Shown piece by piece: positions 6,857-25,839 of a stretch of 30,831 nt of DNA; the stretch's first letter is position 1; every line of letters starts with the position of its first letter. Position numbers and translations under genes: made by a program. The notes beneath the pieces are model-generated. The model had not been told where the DNA came from, searched no databases, and was given only the letters and a program-made list of their open reading frames with translations. The DNA comes from a virus, in the IMG/VR virus record IMGVR_UViG_3300028553_002403, positions 1 to 30,831 of that record; one strand, written 5' to 3'.

Positions 6857-7078
6857 ATGAAAAGCTTTAAACAATATATTACAGAACTCAACGCTGCAGG
6901 TGCAGGGGGTGTATTTGGAGATGCTCCTAGTATGGGTCATGGCGGCAGTGTGGGTAATAAGGATTTTTATGCCCCAGGTGATGCCAGAATACCTTACATA
7001 ATTGGGTCAACGAGAATCAAAGGCAAAAAAAATAAAACTAAATTCCCTATTCAACGTAGAACTCTTGCTGGTATGTAG
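6857..7078 (+). CDS. Small protein with capsid-targeting-like N-terminus
   Basis: A 73-residue Gly-rich, basic-tailed protein. The first ten residues MKSFKQYITE are nearly superposable on the capsid-targeting sequence of T4 internal proteins (MKTYQEFIAE). They end in I-T-E followed by Leu, a good fit to the [LI]-x-E cleavage site of the T4 prohead protease gp21. The rest (DFYAPGDARIPYIIGS, then KGKKNKTKFPIQRR) looks like a short DNA-associated tail. It is the first plus-strand gene after the divergent gap from uvsY. A CATAAATA octamer lies 27 bp upstream. The packaging role is inferred from the N-terminus. Confidence 0.65.
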   Translation: MKSFKQYITELNAAGAGGVFGDAPSMGHGGSVGNKDFYAPGDARIPYIIGSTRIKGKKNKTKFPIQRRTLAGM

Positions 7079-7085
7079 TTAAATA
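7078..7085 (+). promoter_or_regulatory. Late promoter, 4 nt before ATG at 7090
   Basis: The octamer GTTAAATA is followed by ATTG and then the ATG of the GIY-YIG gene. It overlaps the last base of the preceding stop codon. It matches the gp55-type late -10 element in the TTAAATA form. Confidence 0.6.
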
Positions 7086-7089
7086 ATTG

Positions 7090-7506
7090 ATGGACATAGG
7101 GCATTGGATTTTATTAGATGGTATTGAATTCAAAGAGCAACCTTTTGGTTTCATATATGAAATAACCAACACTGTTAACAACAGAAAATATATAGGCAAA
7201 AAACAGTGTGTCTCTAAGATTAGAAAGGCCCCTCTCAAAGGTAGAACCAATAAGAGAATTGCAATAAAAGAATCGGATTGGAAGCAATACACTAGTTCAT
7301 CTAATGAGCTCAATGAAGACATTAAAAAACATGGTAAAGATAAATTCATCTTTAAAATCTTAAAACTATGCGGCAGTAAGTGGGAGTTGGGATATTTTGA
7401 GATAAAAGAACAATTATTGAGAGAGGTAATTTTGAGAGATGATTATTACAACGGCATACTAAATGTACGCATTGGTCGACCGCCTAAAACCTTATTGAAT
7501 TTATAG
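7090..7506 (+). CDS. GIY-YIG family nuclease
   Basis: A 138-residue protein with FGFIYEITNTVNNRKYIGKKQ near residue 20, the two short strands of a GIY-YIG nuclease, and the conserved downstream block ESDWKQYTSSSNELNEDIKKHG seen in many T4-like phage members of this family. The catalytic Arg/Glu pair would lie in the helix after the first motif and in the LREVILRDDYYNGILN region. Such proteins act as homing or host-DNA-cleaving endonucleases. The ATG at 7090 is preferred over the TTG at 7087 because the late octamer lies exactly 4 nt upstream of it. There is no separate DNA-binding domain, unlike most homing enzymes. Confidence 0.8.
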   Translation: MDIGHWILLDGIEFKEQPFGFIYEITNTVNNRKYIGKKQCVSKIRKAPLKGRTNKRIAIKESDWKQYTSSSNELNEDIKKHGKDKFIFKILKLCGSKWELGYFEIKEQLLREVILRDDYYNGILNVRIGRPPKTLLNL

Positions 7507-7522
7507 ATAGTCATTATAGAAT

Positions 7523-8032
7523 ATGAGCGTGAAGAAAGTTTTAATATTTAAAAATATTGAACTTAGAGATTTGGTAGGTTCATTCTATGAGCTGGTTGAG
7601 CCGCTGATAGAGGCTGATACACACAAGTACTCTTTAACCAAGGCCAATATTGTTAACAAATTTGCTATTTATAGATTTGTGGAATTTTTGATTGCGGCGA
7701 AGTCTAAAAAAATGAGTAAAATATTAGCATTTTACGTGGATAGTACAAGATTAAAGAATGATCTTCTTGGAAGTAATTTAAAAATTTATAGAAAATTATG
7801 CCTGATGCTTAATGTCAAAATAATTGAAAGGGTCATTAATTTTGACGAGTATAGCGAACTTCTGAATAGTAACTCTGGTAGAGGTAAGGAAGAAAGACTG
7901 TATTTGCTTCATAAGACACTAGAGCCGACCAAGAATAGTCCTTCCAAGTTCATTGAATTACTCAACAAATATGGTATCTATAAGTTGGATTATAGCAAAA
8001 ACTCAATAAAGTTAGGCATCTTTCTAACATAA
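7523..8032 (+). CDS. Hypothetical protein, 169 aa
   Basis: A Leu/Lys-rich, predominantly helical protein with no motif I recognise and no membrane segment. It lies between the GIY-YIG gene and the small late genes, 16 bp after the former, with an AT-rich upstream stretch but no clear Shine-Dalgarno. It lacks the capsid-targeting-like start of its downstream neighbours. The uninterrupted 510-bp frame between tightly packed co-oriented genes supports it being real. Confidence 0.75.
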   Translation: MSVKKVLIFKNIELRDLVGSFYELVEPLIEADTHKYSLTKANIVNKFAIYRFVEFLIAAKSKKMSKILAFYVDSTRLKNDLLGSNLKIYRKLCLMLNVKIIERVINFDEYSELLNSNSGRGKEERLYLLHKTLEPTKNSPSKFIELLNKYGIYKLDYSKNSIKLGIFLT

Positions 8033-8035
8033 ATA
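8028..8035 (+). promoter_or_regulatory. Late promoter, 4 nt before ATG at 8040
   Basis: CATAAATA, then ACAT, then ATG. The octamer overlaps the stop codon of the previous gene; there is no Shine-Dalgarno between it and the start. Confidence 0.7.
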
Positions 8036-8039
8036 ACAT

Positions 8040-8363
8040 ATGAAGTTCGATACTCTTCTCGTAAAACAATATAAAAAATATAGCTTGCAAGTGCCCAGCG
8101 ATTATACCTTTAAAGAGGATGTCGATACAGGTGCTGATTTGAATATAGGTGCAGGAATTCCTGGTATGGATAAGCAAAAAATAGAAGTTGCAGCTAATGT
8201 TGACAAGAGATCTAAGCTTAACAACCTCATCTCCTCTACTCTTGATTTGTTAATTAAGAAAGCCCAAGACGGTCTTAACAAGACCAAAACACCTTCAACT
8301 CAATCGGTGACTGCACCCACGTCGCCATCATCCAACTCACCTACTACTATCAATCCAGTTTAA
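8040..8363 (+). CDS. Small late protein, possible internal virion protein
   Basis: A 107-residue protein whose N-terminus (MKFDTLLVKQYKKYSLQVPSDY) resembles that of the next gene (MKFYNLLKQKYVDLLEQVPAD), suggesting a shared targeting function or duplication. The middle is Gly/Ala-rich, followed by a helical segment KLNNLISSTLDLLIKKAQDGLNK and a Ser/Thr/Pro tail. Its stop overlaps the next start (TAATG). It is headed by a late octamer at 4-nt spacing. No enzymatic motif is visible. Confidence 0.7.
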   Translation: MKFDTLLVKQYKKYSLQVPSDYTFKEDVDTGADLNIGAGIPGMDKQKIEVAANVDKRSKLNNLISSTLDLLIKKAQDGLNKTKTPSTQSVTAPTSPSSNSPTTINPV

Positions 8364-8707
8364 TGAAATTCTATAATTTACTCAAACAAAAATATGTTGA
8401 TTTGCTTGAGCAGGTGCCAGCGGATCTTAATGGGCTGCCACCAGAAGCAATGCCTGGGGCTATGCCAACAGATCTTCAGACTCCTCCAAGAATAGAGACA
8501 GAAAAGCAGCCATTAACAGCTGAGGGTGAAGTATTTTTAGTTAGATTGCTGCGCAAAGCTCTTTTTATGAACCCGGGTGATATAGATGAAAAATTATTAA
8601 AAGACTTGCCAGAGATAAATGAAAAGAATGCTTCAGAAGTTCTTAACTCTATCATCAACATAATGAAGAAGTACTCAAATACAATTGATGTAGAGACTAA
8701 AGTATAA
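8363..8707 (+). CDS. Small late protein, sister of the preceding gene
   Basis: A 114-residue protein sharing the N-terminal pattern M-K-F-x3-L-L-x2-Y...Q-V-P-[AS]-D with the gene before it. L-L-E at residues 14-16 is a possible gp21-type cleavage site. After a Pro-rich linker it has a compact helical domain (EGEVFLVRLLRKALF, DIDEKLLKDLPEINEKNASEVLNSIINIMKKY) whose pattern is reminiscent of small conserved proteins in T4-like phages. It starts on the stop codon of its neighbour, so the two are translationally coupled. The function is unknown; structural or packaged protein is an inference. Confidence 0.7.
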   Translation: MKFYNLLKQKYVDLLEQVPADLNGLPPEAMPGAMPTDLQTPPRIETEKQPLTAEGEVFLVRLLRKALFMNPGDIDEKLLKDLPEINEKNASEVLNSIINIMKKYSNTIDVETKV

Positions 8708-8713
8708 TAAATA
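8706..8713 (+). promoter_or_regulatory. Late promoter, 4 nt before GTG at 8718
   Basis: AATAAATA, then ACTT, then GTG. It overlaps the end of the upstream gene. Confidence 0.7.
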
Positions 8714-8717
8714 ACTT

Positions 8718-10016
8718 GTGGCATACAAGAGTTTAAAAGACATTTACCTGAGTCAAACTTATGGTAGAAAAATACCAGTTCTCCCCAGACAAGATGTGTA
8801 CAATGAACAAGTTGGACAACCAGTAGAAGTGCCTCAAGAGCCTGTGCAAACAGCAATAGAACCTGTAGACAGCGACGGAGTACAACAGGATGATACTACA
8901 GAAGTAAAGCCTCAAACAATTAATAAAATAAAAGTTCCTTTCTCTTTAGACAGCGTACATGAAGCCAGCTGGCCAGTAGCTTCTGCAGGGGTACCGTTCA
9001 ATACAAAAAGCTTCACACCTCATGTAGGTGAAGGAAATGGTGAAAGAAAGGTAGCTTCTCTCTTTCACCCACAAATGAAGAAAGAGCCAGATAATAGATA
9101 TACAGAAAGATTGGGCACCTTTATTGCAGGCCAGAATGAATCTTTTGATGTTGTATCAGAACAAGGAAATTTTGAAGTTAAGGAATTTAAGCTTGCTAAA
9201 AACGGAAAGTATAGAGGCAGTGTGAGAATAGGTGCTGAAGGCAAGCACACCACAGGCATGATACTATCCCAGGTAAAGGATTTGCTCATTATTCTGCTTC
9301 AAACATATTCATCGCTGGATAATGACTCTAAGAAAGTTTTAAATGACAATTTGATTAAAAACATATCTACTACTAATGATATACCGCCAGGATGGAATCT
9401 AGAGAATTACATTGATGCTATTTTTGATGTAACCATAGGCGAGGACAAAGGTATAACGGAATTTCCTAAAACTCTGTTTCATGGTCAAGAGATAAATCCT
9501 AATTTATTTACTAGAAATAAAAAGCGAGCCACTTACTTGGTTTACACCATACCACAGATTTTAAATGCGCTCAAACAATTGGCTCTACAGGATCAAAATC
9601 AAGCAAATTTAGACAATGAAATTAATCGTGTTAAAAACCTGCAAAGCACTCTCAAAGGATTATATTTGAAAAAGGATGATGAGAAATTTAGTAAAGAAAT
9701 AGAGAAAGAAGCTGAGTCCTTGGATAGGAAATTAATCAGCAAAGCATGCTTATCTGATAGGGGGTCCAATTGCATTACCATTAATACCTTCCTTCAGAAA
9801 TTAGAGAGACTTGACCTGGGTGGTGTGTTTAACAGCATTGATCAGTTGCGGCAAAGTGAGGTTGCAAATATATTCCCTCCAGAGGTTGTTGGGTTCTTTG
9901 CAGTTTTTGAGACAAAGTATAAGTATATTCCCAGGGCTCTACTGAAGGACTATATGGTTATAGATAGCTTTACCCAGAAAGGACTTAAGATAGCATTAAA
10001 AAGTGAAAACGTTTAA
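8718..10016 (+). CDS. Putative PD-(D/E)xK-like nuclease, late gene
   Basis: A 432-residue protein. After an N-terminal region rich in Pro, Gln and Val (about residues 20-70) comes a candidate restriction-endonuclease-like core: Glu109 in GERKVASLF, Asp144 in SFDVV, and Glu153-x-Lys155 in NFEVKEFKL, followed by a basic strand YRGSVRIGAEGK. The order E...D-x8-E-x-K is that of the PD-(D/E)xK fold, where the acidic residues bind metal. The C-terminal 250 residues are helical, with a coiled-coil-like stretch near 290-340. It is led by a late promoter and overlaps the nucleotidyltransferase gene by 14 bp. The nuclease call rests on motif spacing alone; a structural or terminase-associated role is possible. 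Confidence 0.55.
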   Translation: MAYKSLKDIYLSQTYGRKIPVLPRQDVYNEQVGQPVEVPQEPVQTAIEPVDSDGVQQDDTTEVKPQTINKIKVPFSLDSVHEASWPVASAGVPFNTKSFTPHVGEGNGERKVASLFHPQMKKEPDNRYTERLGTFIAGQNESFDVVSEQGNFEVKEFKLAKNGKYRGSVRIGAEGKHTTGMILSQVKDLLIILLQTYSSLDNDSKKVLNDNLIKNISTTNDIPPGWNLENYIDAIFDVTIGEDKGITEFPKTLFHGQEINPNLFTRNKKRATYLVYTIPQILNALKQLALQDQNQANLDNEINRVKNLQSTLKGLYLKKDDEKFSKEIEKEAESLDRKLISKACLSDRGSNCITINTFLQKLERLDLGGVFNSIDQLRQSEVANIFPPEVVGFFAVFETKYKYIPRALLKDYMVIDSFTQKGLKIALKSENV

Positions 10017-10635
10017 AATTTTCTTTGAAAATACAAACACTCTGACATTAGGTCTGTTTCCCGGCGCATTTAAACCACCACATAAAGGACATCTGCAAAC
10101 TGTGGTCGATGCGTTGAAAAACAATCAAAAGGTTATAGTTCTTATTTCCGGCGAAGAGCGTGAAGGCATTAATCCGGAGAAATCTATGATGGTTTGGACA
10201 CAATTCAAACAGTCTATGAATTTAAATAATTTAGAGATTCATATAATATCAGGATCACCTGTGGCAGCAGTGTATCAGATAGTAGACATTCTTAATAATA
10301 GTTCTTATTCACCAACAAAGAGATCTCCAGCGCCCTTGCCTGAATCCAAAACAATTGCAGACAACTTATTGAAACAATCAGCAATATTCGCTATCAAGCT
10401 ATATGCTAGTGAGGAAGATTTTGGCAGATATAATGCGTTTTTTAATCCTAAGACTTCTGATATTTATGTAGGTAAAAATGTTAAAAGTATTGATAAAGGA
10501 GAAGTGAAGAGACTGGCCTCAGCTACTGATGTTAGAAAAAGCATTGTGACTGATAACTTTGATAGATTTAAAGCGTCAATGCCTAACATAGGTGATGATA
10601 AATTAAAAGCAATATTTGGAGCTCTGCAAACATGA
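10003..10635 (+). CDS. HxGH nucleotidyltransferase with capsid-targeting-like N-terminus
   Basis: A 210-residue cytidylyltransferase-superfamily protein. The nucleotide-binding signature LGLFPGAFKPPHKGH places HxGH at residues 27-30, and SATDVRKSI near residue 175 corresponds to the (I/S)-S-x-T-x-x-R motif that binds the triphosphate. Members include NMN adenylyltransferases, phosphopantetheine adenylyltransferases and CTP:glycerol-3-phosphate enzymes; the substrate cannot be told. The first ten residues MKTFKIFFEN look like a T4 capsid-targeting sequence. The start is a GTG inside the end of the upstream gene. Its stop overlaps the start of the KxDGSP protein by 4 bp, so the pair is coupled. 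Confidence 0.85.
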   Translation: MKTFKIFFENTNTLTLGLFPGAFKPPHKGHLQTVVDALKNNQKVIVLISGEEREGINPEKSMMVWTQFKQSMNLNNLEIHIISGSPVAAVYQIVDILNNSSYSPTKRSPAPLPESKTIADNLLKQSAIFAIKLYASEEDFGRYNAFFNPKTSDIYVGKNVKSIDKGEVKRLASATDVRKSIVTDNFDRFKASMPNIGDDKLKAIFGALQT

Positions 10636-11999
10636 TATCCTACAAAGACTTCACAACAACCAATGTTGTACTTGAAGACACTTCACATATTAAGACTCAT
10701 TTGTCTCACTTGGAAGATTTGGCTATTGAAAAGGGCAAGGAAGGATTTGTTGAATTTATGGAGCAGATTTCTAACTTGGTGAACAAGATTAAGGGGTATG
10801 AAACTAATACCGAAATTAATGCAAAAATAGACGGTAGCCCCATGATATTGTTTGGTGTTGATCCGAGAAAGGCCCATTTTAACAAATTTTTTATCTCTCT
10901 GAAAAGTGGTTTGAGTGAAAAAAATCCAAAAATAATGCACAGTAATGAAGAGGTGGATACCTTTTATTCTGGTGAACAGACTCTGGCTAACAAGCTTAAA
11001 AATTTGCTAGTAAATCTTAAATCAGCATACGATGGATCAGGCAATACGTATCAAGCAGATGTATTGTATTCCTCCATGGAGGATAAGAAACAGACAACTA
11101 TAAATGGAGAAAATTTTATTGTGTTTAAGCCTAATACAATAGTATATGCAGTACCAATGGACACAGATTCTGATTTAAGCAAGAGAATTATTGAATCGTC
11201 TGTAGGGGTCATTGTGCATGAATCTTTTAAACCCATAGCAGTAAATTCGACCATATTGCCTGCAGTATCAGGTGTAGCACCAGATCAAACAATAAAGCTT
11301 ACTTCCGCAGGAAGAAATGTAGATTCTATTATTGAATCTGGTAAAAGGGCTAATGTTTTCATAGAGAGTAGCAACTATGGCGCTGTTAGTTACAATATTC
11401 CCGATATTACTTTTGAAAAAATAGCAAACAATTTAATGCAGGCTAAATCTAAGATAGATTTGATTAATTCTAATTTTAATAAAGAATACATCAAAAGCCC
11501 GGCGCTGTCGTTGCTCAAGATATATCTGAACAAGCAGGTTGACAACCCAGCATCAAGTATCTTCACATCTGCAATGAAGGGTGGGGATTTAGATTTGAAA
11601 GAATTTATGGAAGGATTTGTATCGTTCTTAAAGCATCGCTTCGAGAAAGAAGGTCAAACCAAAAAAACGGAATCTGGTAGAAAAAATATTCAGTCCAAGC
11701 TTAATTCCATATTAACATTTATTAAAGAAAATCAAGAAAGCTTTAAGAGCTTGATAGAGGCAACTTTCCATATGGCAGTTATAAAGTATATTATTTTAAA
11801 TATTTTATCTAGCTTAGATTCTAAGATAGGACGAACATTTGTGCAGATGCCTGATGGTACTCTGGTCAAAACCAAAGACGAAGGATATGTACTCTTTGTA
11901 GGAACCAATCACGTGAAAATAGTGGACAGGTTAGACTTTACCAAGATGAACAGACAGGTAGGTGGGAAAAAGAGGGCAGATTTAGTCTCTAAGTTCTAA
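10632..11999 (+). CDS. Ligase-like KxDGSP protein (DUF6267-type)
   Basis: A 455-residue member of a family common in marine T4-like phages, recalled as DUF6267. Recognisable blocks are HLSHLEDLAIEKGKEG near residue 24, AKIDGSPMILFGVDP with Lys65, KFFISLKSG, FIVFKPNTIVYAVP near 165 and DEGYVLFVGTNHVKIVDR near 416. Lys65-x-Asp-Gly matches motif I of covalent nucleotidyltransferases (DNA/RNA ligases and capping enzymes). Glu417-Gly and Lys429 could be motifs IV and V, but this is inference. The N-terminus MISYKDFTTTNVVLE is capsid-targeting-like. The coupled upstream gene encodes another nucleotidyltransferase. It converges on and overlaps the next minus-strand gene by 18 bp. Confidence 0.75.
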   Translation: MISYKDFTTTNVVLEDTSHIKTHLSHLEDLAIEKGKEGFVEFMEQISNLVNKIKGYETNTEINAKIDGSPMILFGVDPRKAHFNKFFISLKSGLSEKNPKIMHSNEEVDTFYSGEQTLANKLKNLLVNLKSAYDGSGNTYQADVLYSSMEDKKQTTINGENFIVFKPNTIVYAVPMDTDSDLSKRIIESSVGVIVHESFKPIAVNSTILPAVSGVAPDQTIKLTSAGRNVDSIIESGKRANVFIESSNYGAVSYNIPDITFEKIANNLMQAKSKIDLINSNFNKEYIKSPALSLLKIYLNKQVDNPASSIFTSAMKGGDLDLKEFMEGFVSFLKHRFEKEGQTKKTESGRKNIQSKLNSILTFIKENQESFKSLIEATFHMAVIKYIILNILSSLDSKIGRTFVQMPDGTLVKTKDEGYVLFVGTNHVKIVDRLDFTKMNRQVGGKKRADLVSKF

Positions 12000-12518
12000 T
12001 TGAAATATTGCTTCGCGTATAGCCTTCTGAATAGTATCTTTATTTTCACCAGTCAACAGATCACGTATTTTACTGACTACTTTATATTCATGGTCATCAT
12101 GTTGACCTTGAAATTTACCTTTGCTCTCAAAATCTTTGTATTCTAAGTAGTGTAAGATGCTGTCCAAATAATCACCAGCAAGAGTAATTTTACTGAATAC
12201 CCAGGGCTCAAGATCAGGTGTGCGTTCAATTATATCATGTAATTTCTTGCTATAATTATGAATTTTATATAGTTCACTCTTGGCCATGCTAGTTTCTTCT
12301 GTGTCTGGTCCTGGTACATCCACAATACCTGCAGGGTTATCCATAGTTATGTTCTCACTTTCTTCAGCTTTAGCTGGAACCTTCTGTACTTTGACATTTA
12401 CCTGTCCAAAAGAGGATGGGCTGACGTTCTGATCTATTGCAGGACTTAACCCCAAGCTAGTTTCATTGATTTGGTCGTAAGCCTCTTTTATGTTGATTAA
12501 ATCAGATTTTCTGTTCAC
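11982..12518 (-). CDS. Conserved T4-like phage protein, probable virion component
   Basis: A 178-residue protein. Residues about 80-125 (MAKSELYKIHNYSKKLHDI ... LEPWVFSKITLAGDYLDSILHYLEY) match a block I recall from many marine T4-like phage proteins of unknown function, usually with a long disordered N-terminus. Residues 25-75 here are Pro/Ser/Glu-rich. The N-terminus contains I-K-E followed by Ala (10-12) and I-N-E followed by Thr (17-19), both of gp21 cleavage type. It starts with GTG, 4 nt after a CATAAATA late octamer. It is the only minus-strand gene of the capsid-targeting-like set. Confidence 0.7.
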   Translation of the reverse strand: MNRKSDLINIKEAYDQINETSLGLSPAIDQNVSPSSFGQVNVKVQKVPAKAEESENITMDNPAGIVDVPGPDTEETSMAKSELYKIHNYSKKLHDIIERTPDLEPWVFSKITLAGDYLDSILHYLEYKDFESKGKFQGQHDDHEYKVVSKIRDLLTGENKDTIQKAIREAIFQLELRD

Positions 12519-12522
12519 TTAT

Positions 12523-12530
12523 TATTTATG
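12523..12530 (-). promoter_or_regulatory. Late promoter, 4 nt before GTG at 12518
   Basis: On the minus strand CATAAATA, then ATAA, then GTG. It stands almost back to back with the plus-strand octamer at 12535, so the 29-bp gap between the two divergent genes is essentially all promoter. Confidence 0.75.
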
Positions 12531-12534
12531 CTCC

Positions 12535-12542
12535 ATTAAATA
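12535..12542 (+). promoter_or_regulatory. Late promoter, 5 nt before GTG at 12548
   Basis: ATTAAATA, then TATAT, then GTG. The spacing is one base longer than in the main group. Confidence 0.5.
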
Positions 12543-12547
12543 TATAT

Positions 12548-12961
12548 GTGAGGCCTTACAAAACTTTTGTTAATGAACAGATTCTAGGTCTTACTGAAGG
12601 TATGACTATTCAGCATGTTGGTTTTGTTCAAGCCAAAATAGACACAGGCAACAGTGCCTATAATGTGCTTCACGGCTTAATTGAAAAGGAAGAAAACGGC
12701 AATGTTACCTTCAAGACCGTTAAAGATAAAATTTTAACTCTGCCAATAGTTGAGCATATACCCATTCACATAGGTAGTGGCAATGTTGAAAAGAGGCCTG
12801 TTGTTGAGTTGGACTGTGGCATAGGCAGCAAGCAATTCAATGGAGTCAAGTTTAGTATAGCAGATAGATCGCAAAACGACTATCCAGTTTTGATTGGTGA
12901 GGATTTCATTAAACTCAATGGTGGAATAGTTAACGTCAAGATTAATAATGACGGTGACTAA
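12548..12961 (+). CDS. Retropepsin-like protease (RimK-associated Zn_protease type) with capsid-targeting-like N-terminus
   Basis: A 137-residue protein starting MRPYKTFVNEQILGLTE followed by Gly: a capsid-targeting-like head ending in a textbook L-T-E cleavage site. Then comes AKIDTGNSAYNVLHG (Asp32-Thr-Gly), GNVTFKTV, EKRPVVELDCGIG and FSIADRSQNDYPVLIGEDFI. This order matches the PF05618-type family of retropepsin-like proteins found next to RimK in bacteria, which share the D-T-G active-site loop with aspartic proteases and act as dimers. No RimK is visible here. It may be a packaged protease or an inert structural relative. It starts at a GTG with a late octamer 5 nt upstream. Confidence 0.75.
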   Translation: MRPYKTFVNEQILGLTEGMTIQHVGFVQAKIDTGNSAYNVLHGLIEKEENGNVTFKTVKDKILTLPIVEHIPIHIGSGNVEKRPVVELDCGIGSKQFNGVKFSIADRSQNDYPVLIGEDFIKLNGGIVNVKINNDGD

Positions 12962-12973
12962 TAATCCTTACAA

Positions 12974-13627
12974 TTAAATTAATTTTCTATTTTGCGCAAA
13001 TTCAATGAATTTATAGAATTCACTTCTAGAATTGTCTTTATCATCCAAGAATGCTCCAGACATTCTAGCGGTTCTCATGGTTGAATCATGACGAATGCCT
13101 CTGTTGGAACAACATGTATGAGCTGCTTCTATCATCACTGCAACACCCTTGTTTTTGACACACACCTCATCAATATACTTGTGAACTTGCATTGTAAGAT
13201 TCTCTTGAACTTGTGGTCTGCGAGAAAACCAATCAACAATACGATTCAATTTGCTGAGACCTATGACTTTGCCGTCCTTGGCAGGAATATATGCAACATG
13301 GGCAAACCCCATGAAAGGTGCATGGTGGTGTGAGCATAGTGAAGTTAATTTGATATTGGTTTGTGAAACAATGCCATCATACTCATCCACATTATCAAAT
13401 GCTGTAATCTTCGGTGGTTCGCTATAACATCCCCATGCGAAATCATCAACAAATGCTTTGGCCACTCTAAGGGGTGTGTTGGCACTATTTGGATCGTTTC
13501 TCCAGTCATACCCTAAAGCATCCATGTAAGCTTCATAAGCTTTGGACGCTTTGTCGATAATCTGCTCTTTTTCTTCTTGAGAACGTGGGATATTATGGTT
13601 GGCAAATGCGAGTTTGTTCTTAAACAT
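12974..13627 (-). CDS. folE: GTP cyclohydrolase I
   Basis: About 217 residues, the normal length. The hallmarks are LCSHHHAPFMGFAHVAYIP (zinc Cys and His), GLSKLNRIVDWFSRRPQVQE (GTP-binding) and AHTCCSNRGI (third zinc ligand). The enzyme converts GTP to dihydroneopterin triphosphate, the entry step for folate and for the QueD-QueE route to 7-deazaguanines. Since queD and queE lie nearby, the deazaguanine role is favoured. The ATG at 13627 is preferred to a TTG at 13633 because a TATAAT box lies 7 nt before it. The gene is divergent from 13675. Confidence 0.95.
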   Translation of the reverse strand: MFKNKLAFANHNIPRSQEEKEQIIDKASKAYEAYMDALGYDWRNDPNSANTPLRVAKAFVDDFAWGCYSEPPKITAFDNVDEYDGIVSQTNIKLTSLCSHHHAPFMGFAHVAYIPAKDGKVIGLSKLNRIVDWFSRRPQVQENLTMQVHKYIDEVCVKNKGVAVMIEAAHTCCSNRGIRHDSTMRTARMSGAFLDDKDNSRSEFYKFIEFAQNRKLI

Positions 13628-13634
13628 ATTCAAT

Positions 13635-13661
13635 ATTATAGTAGGAAACTAATTTAATCAA
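13635..13661 (-). promoter_or_regulatory. Sigma70-like promoter of folE, 7 nt before ATG
   Basis: On the minus strand TTGATT, 15 bp, TATAAT, then 7 nt to ATG. The expected transcription start falls at the start codon. It abuts the plus-strand late octamer at 13663. Confidence 0.5.
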
Positions 13662-13662
13662 G

Positions 13663-13670
13663 ATTAAATA
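13663..13670 (+). promoter_or_regulatory. Late promoter, 4 nt before ATG at 13675
   Basis: ATTAAATA, then TAAA, then ATG; no Shine-Dalgarno. Confidence 0.65.
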
Positions 13671-13674
13671 TAAA

Positions 13675-14097: not shown

Positions 14098-14178
14098 AGG
14101 GTATGATGGTTGTGCCAAGTGTATTAAGAATCAAGAATAACTAATTGATATTGCTTGTCTGTATATTAACATAATGAT

Positions 14179-14838
14179 ATGTTATATCAAAGCACCAAGA
14201 TTATTGAGCTAGGCAGTTGCGCATTCAGACAGTGGAAAGCAGACAGCCATTGTAAGTTTATACATGGCTATAGATTGGTAGCTAAATTCTGGTTTGGTTG
14301 TGACAGGCTGGATGAAAGAAACTGGGTTGTAGATTTTGGTGGCCTCAAGGAACTTAAGCAAGTTTTAGAGAAACAGTTTGATCATACATTTTGTGTGTCG
14401 GCTGATGATCCTCTATTAGAGCAATTCAAAGCTCTACATGCTTCAGGAGCTGCAGATCTTAGAGTAATGCCCAAGGGTGTGGGTATTGAAAGAACAGCAG
14501 AATGGTGTTTTGATGTGGCGGATGGGCATGTGAGAGGTATCACAAGCAATAGATGCTGGGTAGAGAGAGTTGAAGTATGGGAACATGATAAAAATTCTGC
14601 TATTGTAAGTTTTGAGAGCGTAAGGGATATTAGCAACAAGGATTGTTATGTAAAAGATAGTCACCAAAAAGTCGACACTATTACAACAACAATTTCTCCA
14701 ATACTTGAGAATGTCAATACTACTGGTGCCGGTAACAACATTGTCAGCCCAGTTGCAACAGATACTGCTGCAAGAGTAACCCCAAAGGTAACCACAGGTT
14801 ATGCAAATCCCTTTGGTGGTACTAGCTGGGGTGCATGA
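14179..14838 (+). CDS. queD: 6-pyruvoyltetrahydropterin synthase / 6-carboxytetrahydropterin synthase, phage type
   Basis: A 219-residue QueD/PTPS-fold protein of the T4-like phage type. CAFRQWKADSHCKFIHGYRL contains Cys25 and His29 in the C-x3-H spacing of the catalytic and zinc site. The usual second His of HGH is Tyr, and an extra His24 precedes the Cys. WVVDFGGLKELK and QFDHTF (His69), and the C-terminal VEVWEHDKNSAIV complete the fold. Residues about 160-219 are a Thr/Ala/Gly-rich extension beyond the usual 120-150-residue enzyme, ending NPFGGTSWGA. The reaction is dihydroneopterin triphosphate to 6-carboxytetrahydropterin. Its stop overlaps the next start by 4 bp. Confidence 0.85.
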   Translation: MLYQSTKIIELGSCAFRQWKADSHCKFIHGYRLVAKFWFGCDRLDERNWVVDFGGLKELKQVLEKQFDHTFCVSADDPLLEQFKALHASGAADLRVMPKGVGIERTAEWCFDVADGHVRGITSNRCWVERVEVWEHDKNSAIVSFESVRDISNKDCYVKDSHQKVDTITTTISPILENVNTTGAGNNIVSPVATDTAARVTPKVTTGYANPFGGTSWGA

Positions 14839-15765: not shown

Positions 15766-15772
15766 CTACTAT

Positions 15773-15780
15773 TATTTATT
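15773..15780 (-). promoter_or_regulatory. Late-type octamer, 7 nt before phoH ATG
   Basis: AATAAATA on the minus strand, then ATAGTAG, then ATG. The spacing departs from the 4-nt rule, so this message may have a 1-2 nt leader. Confidence 0.45.
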
Positions 15781-15789
15781 TTGACTATG

Positions 15790-16572: not shown

Positions 16573-16573
16573 A

Positions 16574-16601
16574 TTGAATTATAATACACATACATTATAA
16601 T
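16574..16601 (+). promoter_or_regulatory. Sigma70-like promoter of queE, 6 nt before ATG
   Basis: TTGAAT (16574-16579), 16 bp, TATAAT (16596-16601), then AATTCA and ATG. This leaves essentially no leader. Confidence 0.6.
16578..16583 (-). promoter_or_regulatory. TATAAT box, 5 nt before ATG at 16572
   Basis: On the minus strand TATAAT, then TCAAT, then ATG. A TTGAAT lies 19 bp further upstream. It forms an imperfect inverted repeat with the queE promoter. Confidence 0.5.
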
Positions 16602-16607
16602 AATTCA

Positions 16608-17354
16608 ATGAGCAAAGAGACAATAATTTTCTTAAGTGATGATAAAGTATTCTATACCCTTGAAGGTGAAGGTGAGTATGTAGGGCATCCGTCTGTCTTC
16701 ATGAGACTATCCATGTGCAATTTAACATGCAAGGGGTTTGCATCAGCAGATTCACCCAATGGTTGTGATAGTTTTATCAGCTGGTCTGTTAAGAATAGAA
16801 TGACATGTAGCGAAGTTTTAGATCATATGGATGATGAAGGGTTTACAAAACATCTTCGCAATGGTGCAATATGGAAAATAACTGGTGGGGAGCCCTTGAT
16901 TCAGCAGAAGGCATTATTGGATCTGGTGAGAGATTTTGTCAAAAGAAATGGCTTCATACCACACATAGATTTTGAAACCAATGCAACCATTCAACCTGAT
17001 GATGCCTGGAAGGCTTACAAGGTGACGTATACTACTTCACCTAAACTCTCCAATAATGGGGATCCAGTGGAGAAGAGATACAAGCCAGCTGTTCTGAGAT
17101 GGCATGTTGAAAACAATTCAGGCTTCAAGTTTGTTGTGAGTTCACAGAAGGATATGGACGAAATTTTTGAGAGATATATCAATGATCCAGATGTATTAAT
17201 ACCACCTCATAGGGTGTGGCTCATGCCTTGTTGCGGTAGCAGAAAGGAGCACATTGACGTTGCTCCAGTTATAGCAGATATCTGCAAGAATCATGGGTTT
17301 AAGTTTAGCCCACGATTGCAATTAATTATTTGGGATAAAGCTCTTAAGGTTTAA
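16608..17354 (+). CDS. queE: 7-carboxy-7-deazaguanine synthase, radical SAM
   Basis: A 248-residue QueE: FYTLEGEGEYVGHPSVFMRLSMCNLTC, then IWKITGGEPLIQQ (SAM-binding GGE) and HIDFETNAT. The iron-sulfur cysteines are Cys37, Cys41 and Cys53, giving C-x3-C-x11-C instead of the radical SAM standard C-x3-C-x2-C; an insert separates the second and third. The enzyme converts 6-carboxytetrahydropterin to 7-carboxy-7-deazaguanine. Later elements YTTSPKLSNNGDP and VWLMPCCGS are typical of the family. It is divergent from the fucosyltransferase-like gene with abutting promoters. Confidence 0.9.
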   Translation: MSKETIIFLSDDKVFYTLEGEGEYVGHPSVFMRLSMCNLTCKGFASADSPNGCDSFISWSVKNRMTCSEVLDHMDDEGFTKHLRNGAIWKITGGEPLIQQKALLDLVRDFVKRNGFIPHIDFETNATIQPDDAWKAYKVTYTTSPKLSNNGDPVEKRYKPAVLRWHVENNSGFKFVVSSQKDMDEIFERYINDPDVLIPPHRVWLMPCCGSRKEHIDVAPVIADICKNHGFKFSPRLQLIIWDKALKV

Positions 17355-17357
17355 CCG

Positions 17358-17365
17358 CATAAATA
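17358..17365 (+). promoter_or_regulatory. Late promoter, 4 nt before GTG at 17370
   Basis: CATAAATA, then ATAT, then GTG, in the 15-bp gap after queE. Confidence 0.75.
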
Positions 17366-17369
17366 ATAT

Positions 17370-18176
17370 GTGGTTACGTTCTCTAGATTTGTAGAAAATT
17401 TTGCTGTTGGTAAGACCAATTCCATCACTGGCAGTGGTCCAAGTGCGGCCAAGGTGGGTGTGTTGCAATTAAGAGATTTGGACGGTTCGGTGTTGGGTAC
17501 CTATAGTTATGTGAATGGTGGTTATGGTAGAGGATATATTCCATCGGGTGAATACATGATTCAAGCACCGCAACGAGTTAGACCAGATCAATTCAAAGCC
17601 ATGTCCATTGACAATGTTGCATACAAATTTCCTGTGGCCAGTGCCAGCGGGTCAACAGAGATACCTGATTCTAGAGTTCAAAACATACCCACAGGTGATA
17701 ACCCACGTGGAGGTCCCAGAGACGGCATAATGATACACCCTGATGGTGGTTCACGCGGCACAATGGGGTGCATTGGCATACAAGGTGGCGGTGATGTACA
17801 GAAAGATTTTTATGAAAAATTAAAATATCTTGTTAATAATAATGGTGGTTCATATCCTTTGAGATTTGACACTGGAGAAATATCTGTTGGTCCAGAGAGT
17901 CAACCACCAGTGCAGCAAAGTGAACAACCAGAGCAAACACCACAGCAGCCAGCAGAACCTGCAGATGTACTACAACAAGCCTCACTCTCGGATACAAATG
18001 CTCCCAAGGCCATGGCATTTACCCCGCAAGAGGATGGTATTACACAACCTTCACCTGAACCAGATGAAGTACCAGTGCAACAAAATGAGCCAGAACCAGT
18101 TACAGTGCAACCAGTTAAAACATACAAACATAAAAGCACACAAGAGTTTATAGATAAATTAAATCAAATTAAATAA
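17370..18176 (+). CDS. L,D-transpeptidase-like / peptidoglycan-active protein with capsid-targeting-like N-terminus
   Basis: A 268-residue protein. The start MVTFSRFVEN mimics the T4 capsid-targeting sequence. Residues 30-170 form a beta-rich domain with GRGYIPSGEYMIQAP, then DGIMIHPDGGSRGTMGCIGIQG: His123 and Cys134 in the H-x(10)-C order with a GC-I core. This resembles the YkuD-type L,D-transpeptidase and DUF2778/DUF5675-like folds, in which the Cys attacks peptidoglycan stem peptides. The C-terminal 95 residues are Pro/Gln/Glu-rich. GTG is the only usable start before the motif and lies 4 nt after the late octamer. A role in crossing or editing the host wall during entry is inferred. Confidence 0.65.
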   Translation: MVTFSRFVENFAVGKTNSITGSGPSAAKVGVLQLRDLDGSVLGTYSYVNGGYGRGYIPSGEYMIQAPQRVRPDQFKAMSIDNVAYKFPVASASGSTEIPDSRVQNIPTGDNPRGGPRDGIMIHPDGGSRGTMGCIGIQGGGDVQKDFYEKLKYLVNNNGGSYPLRFDTGEISVGPESQPPVQQSEQPEQTPQQPAEPADVLQQASLSDTNAPKAMAFTPQEDGITQPSPEPDEVPVQQNEPEPVTVQPVKTYKHKSTQEFIDKLNQIK

Positions 18177-18179
18177 ATA
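18172..18179 (+). promoter_or_regulatory. Late promoter, 4 nt before ATG at 18184
   Basis: AATAAATA, then TAGT, then ATG. It overlaps the stop codon of the upstream gene. Confidence 0.75.
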
Positions 18180-18183
18180 TAGT

Positions 18184-19050
18184 ATGAACACATCTACCTC
18201 TAAGACAATTTACTCATTATACAGAGAACATGTTCTAACTGAAGCTGCTAATAATTTCGATAGACAAAAATTTATGGAGAAACTATCCAAAAAATCAGAA
18301 ATTTTTAGAGACACTCTCATGGACATAGCTACAAAAATTGACATGACTGAGAAGGATCAAGCCGAGGCTATAGATGAAGTGTTTGTTGCTGCACAGGAAA
18401 ATATTAATCAATTCATTGTAGGTTATAAATCAGAGATAGAGAATGCAATTAAAAATAATCAATATTCAACACAAGGGTTGGTTGATGATTTGAACACAGC
18501 ATTTAGCAGCTACTTGGGTAAGGTGGCAAAAATAAATGGACCAAATGAATGGAAGTTGCAGTTTCCGTCTCCTTCAAATTACTATCCACAGAACAAAACA
18601 CAACAACAAGCTAGCACACCACCAACAACCCAGCAGCCTGCACCACCAGCACAAGCCTTCAACCCAACAGCACAAAATTCTACACAAACCCCACAGCCAC
18701 TGACACCATCCAAAAATGTTCCTGGGGCTGTGCCGCTCACTCCCTCACAACCACTATCGCAGCAGCAGTTGAATCCTTTCACCGGTCAACCTGTAGTGCC
18801 TGTACAAAATACGCAAAATCAAAATATTAATTTGAATCCTTTTGCAAATACCTTCAAACCTGGACCTGGTAGCGCGGCCACCTATGCTCCAAAATCAGGT
18901 CCACTGACTGGCACACAGCAGCCTGTGTACCCCACAAGAAATCAGGCTTATGCTCAAAAAGAAGCTGGTCAAGCACCGCTCGCTAACACAGGCAATGTGT
19001 TGGCAGATTTTAACAGAAGAAGAGCTTACCTTTCAGGCAGAGGATACTAA
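18184..19050 (+). CDS. Probable internal virion protein with Pro/Gln-rich tail
   Basis: A 288-residue protein. The N-terminus ends in HVLTE followed by Ala (L-T-E at 18-20), an excellent prohead-protease site. Residues 20-120 are helical and charged; residues about 130-260 are a low-complexity Pro/Gln/Thr/Asn region (repeated QP, TP and NPF motifs), followed by FNRRRAYLSGRGY. The composition resembles scaffold or internal proteins. The stop overlaps the next ATG (TAATG), which has an AGAGGA Shine-Dalgarno. No enzymatic motif. Confidence 0.7.
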   Translation: MNTSTSKTIYSLYREHVLTEAANNFDRQKFMEKLSKKSEIFRDTLMDIATKIDMTEKDQAEAIDEVFVAAQENINQFIVGYKSEIENAIKNNQYSTQGLVDDLNTAFSSYLGKVAKINGPNEWKLQFPSPSNYYPQNKTQQQASTPPTTQQPAPPAQAFNPTAQNSTQTPQPLTPSKNVPGAVPLTPSQPLSQQQLNPFTGQPVVPVQNTQNQNINLNPFANTFKPGPGSAATYAPKSGPLTGTQQPVYPTRNQAYAQKEAGQAPLANTGNVLADFNRRRAYLSGRGY

Positions 19051-20735
19051 TGACTTTTAATGAACTATTAAAACTAGCTACAGAAGCCTCACTTAGCACC
19101 GGTGCAGCTGCACCTGGCATAGGTTCAAATCTGGCCAGTGGTGCAGCAACACTGCAATCTTTAAACCCTGCACAAAAGGGAAAGCTGGAATTGCCTGTGC
19201 CGGGCATGGACAATCCAGAGTTCAATATTAGCGGTCTGGAAGAATTTTTTATTGAATTCGCAAAAGTATTAGACCCAACTGGTGTATTGAGTTATAAAGA
19301 TACTTTGGTTGCAGCAGGTAAAATGTATGATGAATTTTCAAAGATGTCTAACAAACAAGAAAATAATTTCTGGTTATCATTCTTAATATTTGTACTGTGT
19401 GTTTATTCCTCTCTGCCTAATGTGGGACTATTAGTCGGTGGCATAGGGGGGCTTGTGCAATACACTGGCAAAGCTGGTGCAAGGCTTGCAAGGCAACAGC
19501 TATCAAAAGGAATATCTGAAGAAGCGGTGAAAGAGATGGGAATAATTGCCCGCACTACTGAAGATCATTTTAAAAAGAATCCTCAACAGCTCACAGGTAT
19601 TATTGATTTTGCCTCTAAGCATAATTTAATAGAACCTGAAGCTTCAGCAACTATAAAAAATTATTTTTTAAAGAATCCTGAATATGCAAAGAGAGTGGAC
19701 CAAATGCCATCTCTTCCAGATTATTTTGAGAATCCTACTCTGCTTGATAACACAATTAAAGCATACGAGAATAAACTTGCAGGTAAGATGGACGGTGACA
19801 AGCTTATACGGCATAACGAACTGGTACGCAAGAAAACGGATAAAGGTTTAACTATACCTGAAGAAAGAGAATTGATGAATTTAAATAAAAAAACGGAATT
19901 GAGTGAATATGATTTGAAGAATTATGAGGAGGCCTTATACGCGAAGAATATCCAAAAAATGGCAGATCAACCCGGGCCAGAGACATTGCCACAAGTAGCA
20001 GGCAAAGCAATGAAATCGCAATCACAATTTAAACCAGATCCAGCATCATCTGGTCTCTCCAGAGCTGCACAGAGTATTTACGGAAAATCTACAGGCAACT
20101 ATTATGGCATTACTGGTGTCAAGGGTAATGTAATAGCTCCACCTAGCCCGGGCATATCCGGTGTAGGCAGGGGCCTAATTACACCTTCACAGGCAAAGGT
20201 AAGATTGGGTAAGAATATTGCTGCAGGTTATGGACCCATGAACGAACCCACACAGGGAGGTGGCACGAGCGATGTTTCACCCACATATAAGCCAGCCAAA
20301 CAACAACCAGGTCAAATACCTGCATATAATTACGAGGTGCAACCAATTCCAATATCTGCTCCAGTTTCAACTAACTTGCCTCCAGTGATGCAGCCACCTG
20401 TAAGAGTACCTGCAGGTAGCAAGCCTGCAGGTGTGAGGTTTGCTCCTCTGTACCAGGGATCTGCTGGAGCAACCAAAGAGGAACCCCTGGGTAGATATAC
20501 ACCTGGTGCCAAGGATTATTCTACCCCTGATAAAACCATGCAGCTGTATGCCAAAAATAAAGAAGAGACTGATGTGGATAGTTCGGCAGGACCAATGCCT
20601 TTGTTTCAGCAGCTTAGTGTCCAAAAGCATAATGATGCCGAACAGAAAGAAAGAACTACCCGAGAAACCAGAGATGAGACCAAAAAACAGATCAAATCTT
20701 TCAAAGAAAGAATGAAAGAACAAGATAACAAATAA
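19050..20735 (+). CDS. Large virion-associated protein with hydrophobic segment
   Basis: A 561-residue protein. The N-terminus MTFNELLKLATEASL has the targeting-like pattern, although the residue three before the candidate cut is Ala. Residues about 107-136 (NFWLSFLIFVLCVY, then VGLLVGGIGGLVQY) form one long or two short hydrophobic segments. Residues 150-300 are helical and charged; residues 330-490 are Pro/Gly-rich and probably disordered; the last 50 residues are strongly charged (KERTTRETRDETKKQIKS). It could be an ejected, membrane-inserting internal protein, but no homologue is recognised. It has a good Shine-Dalgarno inside the end of the preceding gene. Confidence 0.7.
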   Translation: MTFNELLKLATEASLSTGAAAPGIGSNLASGAATLQSLNPAQKGKLELPVPGMDNPEFNISGLEEFFIEFAKVLDPTGVLSYKDTLVAAGKMYDEFSKMSNKQENNFWLSFLIFVLCVYSSLPNVGLLVGGIGGLVQYTGKAGARLARQQLSKGISEEAVKEMGIIARTTEDHFKKNPQQLTGIIDFASKHNLIEPEASATIKNYFLKNPEYAKRVDQMPSLPDYFENPTLLDNTIKAYENKLAGKMDGDKLIRHNELVRKKTDKGLTIPEERELMNLNKKTELSEYDLKNYEEALYAKNIQKMADQPGPETLPQVAGKAMKSQSQFKPDPASSGLSRAAQSIYGKSTGNYYGITGVKGNVIAPPSPGISGVGRGLITPSQAKVRLGKNIAAGYGPMNEPTQGGGTSDVSPTYKPAKQQPGQIPAYNYEVQPIPISAPVSTNLPPVMQPPVRVPAGSKPAGVRFAPLYQGSAGATKEEPLGRYTPGAKDYSTPDKTMQLYAKNKEETDVDSSAGPMPLFQQLSVQKHNDAEQKERTTRETRDETKKQIKSFKERMKEQDNK

Positions 20736-20762
20736 TAAGTCTTGATTTAGAGCAACAAAACA

Positions 20763-20768
20763 TATAAT
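20763..20768 (+). promoter_or_regulatory. TATAAT box, 6 nt before ATG at 20775
   Basis: TATAAT, then TAAGTT, then ATG. A TTGATT lies 15 bp upstream, a weak -35. Confidence 0.5.
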
Positions 20769-20774
20769 TAAGTT

Positions 20775-21485
20775 ATGAGGATATCTTTTAGCGGGGCTGC
20801 AAGCACAGGCAAGACAACTACATTCAAAGCATTTCTAGAGAAATGGCCAAATTATAAAACACTGCAATCTGACTACAGACATCTGATAAGAGGCAATAAA
20901 CACAGCAAGCACACTGATAAAAAAACTCAAAAAAATATTCTGGAATTCATGTGTAATGCGCAAAAGGGCTTCACATTGCATGATAACATTGCTTACGACA
21001 GATGCCCCCTGGATAATCTCGTTTACACATTGTGGGCTTATGAGAAAGGTATCAAAGGCTTCAATGAGAAGTTTGTAACTGATTGCATGGAGATTGTCGG
21101 TGAAAGTATGAAAGCGTTGGATATTATTTTTCTGTGTACCAGGGATTTGATGGGTCCTGCGGAAAGCAATGGCAAGAGAGAATCAGACCCAGTATATATT
21201 TCGGAAACTGATAATATATTCAAAGCTATCTCCAGACAGCTTTCCACTGGGAAATCACCCATTTTTCCGCATGGTGACAGCCCAGCAGTTATTGAGATTC
21301 ATGGCAATACAGAGGAGAGAATGGCACAGGTTGCTCTCTATGTTACTGCAGAGGGCACCATGTATGGGGAAGAACAGAGCATAGTCAATTTTGATGAATT
21401 GCTGAAAATGAAATCTCTCATCAACGAACAACACGGTCAAATTAAACAAGACACGCAATTACCCATCATTGATCCCAATAAATAA
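20775..21485 (+). CDS. P-loop NTPase/kinase, AAA_28 (NadR-kinase)-like
   Basis: A 236-residue protein beginning directly with a Walker A loop, FSGAASTGKTT (Gly7...Lys13-Thr14). NIAYDRCPLDNLVYTLWA (D-R, as in nucleoside-kinase LID/substrate regions) and DIIFLCTRDL (Walker B-like end of a strand) follow. This arrangement is that of the AAA_28 family, which includes the ribosylnicotinamide kinase domain of NadR and other small-molecule kinases. The C-terminal 45 residues are extra. The substrate is unknown. Its promoter is of the TATAAT type, unlike the late genes around it. Confidence 0.65.
   Translation: MRISFSGAASTGKTTTFKAFLEKWPNYKTLQSDYRHLIRGNKHSKHTDKKTQKNILEFMCNAQKGFTLHDNIAYDRCPLDNLVYTLWAYEKGIKGFNEKFVTDCMEIVGESMKALDIIFLCTRDLMGPAESNGKRESDPVYISETDNIFKAISRQLSTGKSPIFPHGDSPAVIEIHGNTEERMAQVALYVTAEGTMYGEEQSIVNFDELLKMKSLINEQHGQIKQDTQLPIIDPNK
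21477..21484 (+). promoter_or_regulatory. Late promoter, 4 nt before ATG at 21489
   Basis: AATAAATA, then ATGT, then ATG. It overlaps the end of the kinase-like gene. Confidence 0.75.
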
Positions 21486-21488
21486 TGT

Positions 21489-21707
21489 ATGAGCTTTAAT
21501 AGAGAATTCAGTAAACTCTATGAAAACTTTTCTTCCATAAAAGTTACAAACAGATTGTTTTACCCCCGTTCAAAGAATTTTAATCTGTCACCTCAATTCA
21601 TCCATGCCTTTAAACAGGAGTACAAGAGGTTGAAAGAACAGGGACTTACAGACAAGGGGATAATGCAGAGCATTGCTAAAGCATTGTTCTTCCACGCAAA
21701 GAATTAA
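21489..21707 (+). CDS. Small basic late protein
   Basis: A 72-residue basic protein, MSFNREFSKLYENFSS at the start, with L-Y-E followed by Asn at 10-12 as a possible processing site. The C-terminal half (FIHAFKQEYKRLKEQGLTDKGIMQSIAKALFF) is a helical, helix-turn-helix-sized segment. A late octamer at exactly 4 nt supports expression. It converges on the fibre-like gene with a 4-bp overlap. Function unknown. Confidence 0.65.
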   Translation: MSFNREFSKLYENFSSIKVTNRLFYPRSKNFNLSPQFIHAFKQEYKRLKEQGLTDKGIMQSIAKALFFHAKN

Positions 21708-22282
21708 TAAGGCGTACAGATAGTATAATAAATGGTAACAGGGGAGGCAAGAGATGTTGTGCAGCTAATAACAAAACTGAAGCTAGAATTACCAGCACCA
21801 CCATTTGTAATAGAAGATATATAGAATTGCGCACCAGAATTTCCGGGCACACTGGTCATCATGAGATTGATGTCTGACTGAGTAATAATAGCATTGCTGG
21901 GCTTGGTCAGTGCACCTATAGAGGCAGTGGAGGTCACTGTAGTATTGCCTTTGTAGCAGAAGATATTGTAACTATTGGCAATGGGTGTGGTGGAAGTGGT
22001 GAGTGTGATGCTGGGGGTTCTGGCCATTATATTGCCACTGGCAGTAACCAAATCTGTATTTGCCTGAGTCTTGTCTGTAGTGGCTTGAGAGCTTAGATTA
22101 TTGACGTTAGTACTCAGAGTTTCAAGACTGCTGTAAAAACTAACATTATTTGGACCTAAAACAAAATCAATAAAATCAATAACGTTAGTCCCTTGTTCAT
22201 TCTCTACAATGAGAAAGTTACCATTGGTAATTTCTTCTATTTGATTTAGATCCTTTATATTTACATTATTATAAACGGCCAT
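21704..22282 (-). CDS. Fibre-like structural protein
   Basis: A 192-residue protein whose N-terminus (NVNIKDLNQIEEITNGNFLIVENEQGTNVIDFIDFVLG) matches the attachment block found at the start of several fibre or appendage proteins of marine T4-like phages. A short coiled-coil-like stretch (LETLSTNVNNLSSQATTDKTQ) follows, then a Ser/Thr-rich, beta-prone C-terminus. It is preceded by TATAAATA, the exact T4 late consensus, 4 nt before ATG. Likely a short appendage or adaptor; which one is unclear. Confidence 0.7.
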   Translation of the reverse strand: MAVYNNVNIKDLNQIEEITNGNFLIVENEQGTNVIDFIDFVLGPNNVSFYSSLETLSTNVNNLSSQATTDKTQANTDLVTASGNIMARTPSITLTTSTTPIANSYNIFCYKGNTTVTSTASIGALTKPSNAIITQSDINLMMTSVPGNSGAQFYISSITNGGAGNSSFSFVISCTTSLASPVTIYYTICTPY

Positions 22283-22286
22283 ACCT

Positions 22287-22294
22287 TATTTATA
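22287..22294 (-). promoter_or_regulatory. Late promoter (exact T4 consensus), 4 nt before ATG at 22282
   Basis: On the minus strand TATAAATA, then AGGT, then ATG. This is the only copy in the series with the full T4 octamer. Confidence 0.85.
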
Positions 22295-25783: not shown

Positions 25784-25789
25784 ACCATT

Positions 25790-25817: not shown

Positions 25818-25839
25818 GATTTAAGTATAAACTTTTATT

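Follow-up and report, generated by a model that had tools for sequence, protein, structure and literature searches.

Record IMGVR_UViG_3300028553_002403 comes from an uncultured virus, and the window considered here is the whole of this record (30,831 bp, 37% GC), which is itself a fragment. It contains octamers of the form N[AT]TAAATA, the late-promoter type of phage T4, placed a few nucleotides (nt) before start codons, and the subject of this text is that arrangement of promoter and translation start. The initial annotation had located nine such octamers exactly 4 nt before ATG or GTG codons and had predicted leaderless late messages; all nine are at the coordinates it gave, as are the three near-copies that it listed at 5, 7, and 6 nt before starts 12548, 15765 (minus strand), and 30297, respectively.

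On the plus strand, the octamers at spacing 4 (d4, where d is the number of bases between the promoter box and the start codon) are GTTAAATA (7078-7085) before ATG 7090 of a SegE-like GIY-YIG gene, CATAAATA (8028-8035) before ATG 8040, AATAAATA (8706-8713) before GTG 8718, ATTAAATA (13663-13670) before ATG 13675, CATAAATA (17358-17365) before GTG 17370, and two further copies of AATAAATA, at 18172-18179 before ATG 18184 and at 21477-21484 before ATG 21489. On the minus strand, CATAAATA (12523-12530) precedes GTG 12518, and TATAAATA (22287-22294) precedes ATG 22282. The upstream gene's stop codon lies inside the octamer at 8030-8032 (TAA) and at 18174-18176, and that of the gene before GTG 8718 is the TAA at 8705-8707; the ortholog of the 8718 gene in relative G011 likewise combines d4 with GTG. 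The other sites are ATTAAATA (12535-12542, plus strand), 5 nt before GTG 12548 of a putative Zn protease gene and back to back with the octamer at 12523-12530, AATAAATA (15773-15780, minus strand), 7 nt before ATG 15765 of a PhoH-like gene, a spacing kept in two orthologs, and the near-copy ACTAAATA (CTAAATA; 30283-30290, plus strand), 6 nt before ATG 30297. Both strands of the window hold 28 matches to WTAAATA, nine of which stand exactly 4 nt before a start codon with an open frame of 50 codons or more, while 0.2 would be expected for 28 octamers at any one distance (probability of at least nine, about 3e-13). The distance histogram has its peak at 4 (nine sites), with 0-3 sites at every other distance up to 40. 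When every 6-mer was combined with every distance of 0-25 nt before ATG or GTG codons opening at least 50 codons (background rate 0.0072 per position), TAAATA at d4 ranked first of all pairs in the window (9 vs. 0.25 expected; 1e-11). The N[AT]TAAATA sites have the octamer of a T4-type (gp55) late promoter.

The gp55 gene annotated initially at 4408-5049 is real; it is an open reading frame (ORF) at 4408-5073 on the minus strand, with TTG 5073 or the internal ATG 5049 as its start, and its predicted product is a gp55-type late sigma factor (PHROG 234, "late sigma transcription factor", E 8e-23) with 31-39% identity to gp55 of cyanophages and pelagiphages in tblastn. By sequence, octamers and a gp55 homolog are thus carried by the same phage. 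Besides gp55, the T4 core genes of the window are gp46/47-type genes and a UvsW-like helicase gene (4964-6424), and those of its relatives are TerL, gp43, gp44, gp41, UvsX, gp18, gp21, and gp23; with these genes the phages belong to the T4 superfamily. While few recognisable structural genes lie within the window itself, in the relatives the octamer precedes orthologs of T4 late genes, namely TerL and gp21, and in relative G003 also gp15.

Since the window is a 30.8-kb fragment, the genome-wide plot of octamer-to-start distances that had been proposed as a check was made on longer relatives. The UvsW-like helicase used as a query gave 26 loci in IMG/VR, and the relatives, taken whole from that database, include records of 193, 127, 105, 64, 64, and 59 kb. 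Eight divergent relatives were pooled for the scans, and phages T4, Syn9, S-PM2, phiN3, HTVC008M, and Mosig served as controls under the identical scan. G003 is the 193-kb record, with 50% identity in UvsW. TAAATA at d4 ranked first in the eight relatives as well (61 seen vs. 3.2 expected), and d4 and d5 were the two strongest motif-distance pairs (1e-54 and 1e-50). The histogram of octamer-to-start distances shows a peak at 4-7, with 58, 47, 20, and 13 sites at 4, 5, 6, and 7 nt, respectively, over a background of about 2. In G003, the d4 peak is absent, and 29 and 14 sites are at d5 and d6. The phages with this arrangement are T4-related, come from fresh water, and form a group that is uncultured.

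Most octamer sites have no -35 element, as is expected of gp55 promoters: TTG[AC] at spacers of 15-17 bp was found in about 8 of 139, although the d4 sites include a cluster of seven with TTG[AC] at a spacer of 14. The late octamer of T4 occupies positions -13 to -6 (PMC1524935). With this geometry, spacing 5 puts +1 on the A of ATG, while at spacing 4 it would fall on the codon's second base, which makes it necessary to assume a shift of 1 nt; the prevalence of d4 in the window's clade suggests that late transcription may start there 5 nt after the octamer.

The arrangement extends beyond late genes. The second motif class of the 6-mer scan is TATAAT 6 nt before starts (37 seen vs. 4.2 expected), with 7 nt as a minor form. 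TTGA or TTGC at a spacer of 15-17 bp accompanies 27 of the 38 TATAAT-N6 sites and only 25 of 1032 TATAATs elsewhere; with -35, -10, and their spacing intact, these sites are therefore sigma-70-type promoters, and with the -10 box at -12 to -7, +1 coincides with the start codon's first base. In the window, such early-type boxes occur on the minus strand at 4423-4428, 7 nt before ATG 4415 of the gp47 gene (the gp47 orthologs of four relatives also have TATAAT at d7), at 13635-13640, 7 nt before ATG 13627 of a GTP cyclohydrolase I gene, at 16578-16583, 5 nt before ATG 16572, and at 25790-25795, 6 nt before GTG 25783 (upstream TTGATA). On the plus strand, they are at 16596-16601, 6 nt before ATG 16608 of a Fer4_12/QueE-like gene (upstream TTGAAT) and back to back with the box at 16578-16583, and at 20763-20768, 6 nt before ATG 20775 of an AAA ATPase gene (upstream TTGATT). 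TATANT boxes precede the DNA polymerase gene gp43 in five of six genomes and gp47 in four of six, and with the octamer on TerL and gp21, the functional division into late and early genes agrees with the two promoter classes. The peaks of TATAAT at d6-7 and of TAAATA at d4-7 correspond to the feature by which Zheng (2011) recognised leaderless genes, a -10-like box located some 12 bp ahead of the start codon.

Several observations bear on where coding and transcription begin. Codons 2-8 were compared in 186 ortholog pairs whose octamers abut the start: the differences at codon positions 1, 2, and 3 number 405, 330, and 653 of 1302 cases each, and this codon-type bias from codon 2 onwards indicates that coding starts at the abutting codon; the pairs were picked by same-register N-terminal alignment and are not independent, so these figures are descriptive. 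In the same pairs, the octamer is kept, while the bases upstream of it differ at about 55% and the spacer diverges. A T at -1 precedes 87 of 126 starts at d4-6 but 73 of 204 starts that lack a promoter box (p 5e-9); among the d5 starts of other clades, it precedes 69 of 96. A pyrimidine-purine step is usual at bacterial transcription start sites, and the T before the start codon forms this Y-1/R+1 initiator pattern there. GTG is used in 34 of 106 octamer starts at d4-5 vs. 1 of 33 at d6-7 (p 4e-4), and in 14 of 38 TATAAT starts at d6 vs. 1 of 19 at d7 (p 0.01), as if it were tolerated mainly at the very 5' end of a message.

Divergent start-codon pairs within 65 bp number 28 (3 in the window and 25 in close relatives), or 31 when G003 is counted, and those 29-60 bp apart, with some at no more than 29-33 bp, hold just two back-to-back abutting promoters, which in part of the pairs are one early and one late. 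The pairs in the window are 12518 (minus)/12548 (plus) at 29 bp, 16572 (minus)/16608 (plus) at 35 bp, and 13627 (minus)/13675 (plus) at 47 bp; no such compact pairs were found in T4, Syn9, S-PM2, HTVC008M, or Mosig. Six octamers directly follow a T-run hairpin that resembles an intrinsic terminator. In a rough count based on ORFs, an abutting promoter is present at 181 of 559 genes (32%) and at 83 of the 143 genes that head a strand run.

The claim that the spacing is exactly 4 needs to be restricted: it is true of the window's clade, while orthologs use 4-7 and other clades 5-6. Spacing varies among orthologs inside the range of 4-7, the only range from which pairs were gathered. In a tree of the 80 gp55 loci kept, all records dominated by d4 sit inside the window's clade, which has 100/100 support, and the pooled, de-duplicated d4:d5 counts are 65:46 in this clade vs. 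2:96 at all other gp55 loci (p 6e-21). The rooting and the deep branches of the tree (T4, phiN3) are unreliable, the d5 label of T4 reflects three sites at chance level, and labels of single loci are noisy; only the clustering of d4 and the pooled counts were used. Taken together, the counts and the tree indicate that spacing 5 is general across a large uncultured group and that spacing 4 is a derived shift of 1 nt in one clade.

Between the octamer and the start codon, 4-7 nt leave no room for a Shine-Dalgarno (SD) sequence, as had been stated initially for spacing 4. SD-like motifs 3-10 nt before starts are enriched only 1.0-1.5x over background in the clade, compared with 3.7-7.2x in T4, so that both the space for an SD and its enrichment are small; with such values, the contrast drawn earlier between these starts and SD-bearing genes further down the same operons is weak. 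Some genes do have leaders. The major capsid gene gp23 in G001 has one with TAAGGAG. Before the tail sheath gene gp18 in G001, G002, and G004, the octamer stands 7-8 nt before the ATG of an 11-codon mini-ORF (G001 48106, L030; G002 about 47.5 kb, L036; G004 about 28.8 kb, L042). These mini-ORFs (MSNNSLAGDNN, MSQFFPVGGVN, and MSYKIPAGGSK) contain GGAG or a GGAGG-like sequence and end 1-5 nt before the gp18 start, and each is possibly a leader peptide that loads ribosomes. In three relatives, another large gene is preceded by longer mini-ORFs. A search for an overall surplus of short ORFs led by an octamer was negative, and only the cases at gp18 and at a few tail genes appear genuine. Leaderless starts would therefore be common in these phages, and not universal.

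We conclude, with a probability of roughly 85%, that the late mRNAs of this phage are leaderless or nearly so and are made from gp55-type promoters, and that its early promoters are placed alike. As a prediction, leaderless expression is strongly supported; from the motif, its spacing and conservation, and coding from the first codon, all observed, we infer the 5' ends of the transcripts and their translation without a leader. At the octamers, RNA polymerase would begin on the start codon's first base or no more than about 1-3 nt away from it; at spacing 4, the distance from octamer to transcription start would be 5 nt, which is 1 nt shorter than in T4, or the start would slide to the nearest purine. 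Host-type early promoters (-35 TTGA/TTGC, spacer of 15-17 bp, TATAAT, N6-7) would be placed at the start codon likewise. For about one-third of the genes, and most heads of strand runs, promoter and translation start would form a single element, 12-15 bp long in the late class and about 35 bp long in the early class. Recognition of the AUG or GUG at the 5' end by ribosomes would need no SD, while operon-internal genes would be translated by coupling or by other non-SD routes. The earlier prediction of leaderless late messages is thus borne out by the distance peak, the -35 class, the codon-2 signature, T at -1, and the divergent promoters; it has to be widened to early genes and does not cover gp23 and gp18. 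Whether both early and late expression proceed mainly through leaderless mRNA across a large uncultured group of the T4 superfamily, with a spacing that evolved together with gp55 (mostly d5, d4 in the window's clade) and leaderless mini-ORFs as ribosome loaders for some high-demand genes, we consider evenly balanced.

Certain results weigh against these conclusions. In addition to the leaders of gp23 and gp18 and the 1-nt shift required at spacing 4 (PMC1524935), the arrangement is limited to about 32% of genes, orthologous sites in relatives are not independent, and neither a scan of bacterial genome contigs for GMP reductase nor a search with the tmRNA 3'-end pattern gave a host. Moreover, there is overlap with the stop codon of the gene upstream at 40 of the 146 octamer starts, and the genes that begin there may be translated also from read-through mRNA. 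The overlaps and the leaders of gp18 and gp23 (with an SD or a mini-ORF) would suit mixed use, in which leaderless messages are made but most protein comes from leadered or polycistronic read-through transcripts. We find this unlikely, although it deserves serious consideration, as an abutting promoter is the visible start signal of the 83 of 143 strand-run head genes and hairpin terminators directly precede some octamers.

That the A/T-rich box is a translation-initiation signal, with transcripts starting further upstream, appears improbable. Organisms that make little use of SDs commonly have A/T-rich sequence ahead of their start codons, and SD enrichment in the clade is weak; however, there are two motifs with different fixed spacings (TAAATA at d4-7 and TATAAT at d6-7), each fitting the -10 geometry of its own class, and the TATAAT class has -35 elements, which a purely translational signal would not. 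The octamer is, besides, the known late promoter of T4, located farther upstream in T4 and cyanophages, and divergent starts 29-35 bp apart leave hardly any upstream room. Still less credible is that the octamers are real late promoters followed by T4-like leaders, with the true starts farther downstream and the abutting ATG or GTG incidental. The octamers of T4 stand 23-29 nt before the start codon, and strict T4 geometry at spacing 4 cuts off the first base of the codon, but the codon-type substitution bias from codon 2 in the 186 pairs and the occurrence of fixed-spacing start codons far above chance in every relative speak against it. A compositional artefact, in which upstream TAA stops and A/T richness create TAAATA near starts, as the stops inside several octamers (8030-8032, 18174-18176) might suggest, is refuted by the 6-mer distance scan, the exact spacing, the presence of an upstream stop in just those 40 of 146 octamers, the lack of one in divergent pairs, and the lack of a d4 class in the equally A/T-rich T4 and HTVC008M, and has a negligible chance of being true.

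Other features of these genomes were recorded. The window encodes a transfer-messenger RNA (tmRNA; 29513-29926, minus strand; Rfam RF00023, 96 bits), missed there by ARAGORN, and tmRNAs are also present in G005 (L051:1927-2331, minus strand) and G002 (112129-112532). The tag ORF is of unusual length and is conserved (AEDTFDMAMSLEEADAILAVAGFEDTEANLELVY before the stop in the window vs. AEDNFDMAMSLEEADAILAQYGFEDAEAELELV in G002 and G005), and the tag ends without the usual LAA-type degron. The lone match to the tmRNA 3'-end pattern, a chromosomal Bacilli tmRNA, was rejected as a host clue, being most likely due to chance. Genes of GTP cyclohydrolase I (12974-13633, minus strand), 6-pyruvoyl-tetrahydropterin synthase (QueD-like, 14179-14838), and a QueE-like Fe-S protein (16608-17354) are likely a 7-deazaguanine (DNA modification) set. 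A run of glycosyltransferase- and methyltransferase-like genes (22342-28746) is interrupted by an IMP dehydrogenase/GMP reductase gene (23141-24100), for which scanning bacterial genomes gave no close relative. The number of tRNA genes is 22 in G003 (1-60 kb, L062-L064), 1 in G002, and 0 in G001, G004, G005, and G006.

The late transcription of T4 belongs to the textbook systems; the messages that it yields have leaders and SD sites. The late promoters of T4 (gp55/gp33/gp45; TATAAATA at -13 to -6) resemble those described here in the octamer, the usual lack of a -35 element, the presence of a gp55 homolog, and the late structural and packaging genes downstream. However, in T4, 23-29 nt separate the octamer from the start codon and include a strong SD, which agrees with the initial remark that T4 itself uses leaders, while in the clade 4-7 nt leave no space for an SD. 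Late promoters of cyanophages S-PM2 and Syn9 (NATAAATA; PMC2984593) have the same octamer with the same degenerate first base and little SD enrichment, but mostly 19-29 nt upstream, and the abutting class is absent. In Sinorhizobium phages phiN3 and phiM9, the abutting pattern is absent, and phiN3 has no octamer peak. The Pelagibacter phages HTVC008M and Mosig (Kyanoviridae) are like the clade in that a minority of their genes (9 and 6, respectively) have an octamer at exactly 5 nt, and the d5 start at 75559 in HTVC008M is an annotated coding sequence start, further d5 starts of this phage being 7562, 19456, 31132, and 49760; they differ from it in strong SD use overall (3.3-7.4x; 3.4-7.4x background in HTVC008M). 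An abutting promoter is present in 7% of the genes of HTVC008M, 2% of those of T4, and 0% of those of S-PM2, as compared with 32% in the clade. Late-promoter prediction in pelagimyophages was reported to be unsuccessful (PMC7029224), which the abutting arrangement may explain. The idea can be tested directly in HTVC008M, which is in culture and has nine octamers at d5.

If true, this would be an expression strategy of the T4 superfamily that differs from that of T4, with promoter and start codon fused for early and late genes alike, and the start-site geometry of a phage sigma factor would evolve together with the start codon. For annotation, a promoter box 4-7 nt before a codon would fix the start codon. 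The parts are of known kinds, the T4 late promoter and leaderless genes; the literature searched, which covered few subscription papers, yielded neither their combination as a genome-wide strategy of T4-superfamily phages nor a description of T4-like late messages that are leaderless throughout a genome. Bacterial leaderless genes have their -10 box about 12 bp ahead of the start (Zheng 2011, PMC3160421; for mycobacteria, PMC4633059), and the logic is the same as in the clade, a -10 box at the start codon meaning no leader. However, those genes use host sigma-70-type promoters, to which the clade adds the promoter of a phage late sigma factor, in a phage of the T4 superfamily.

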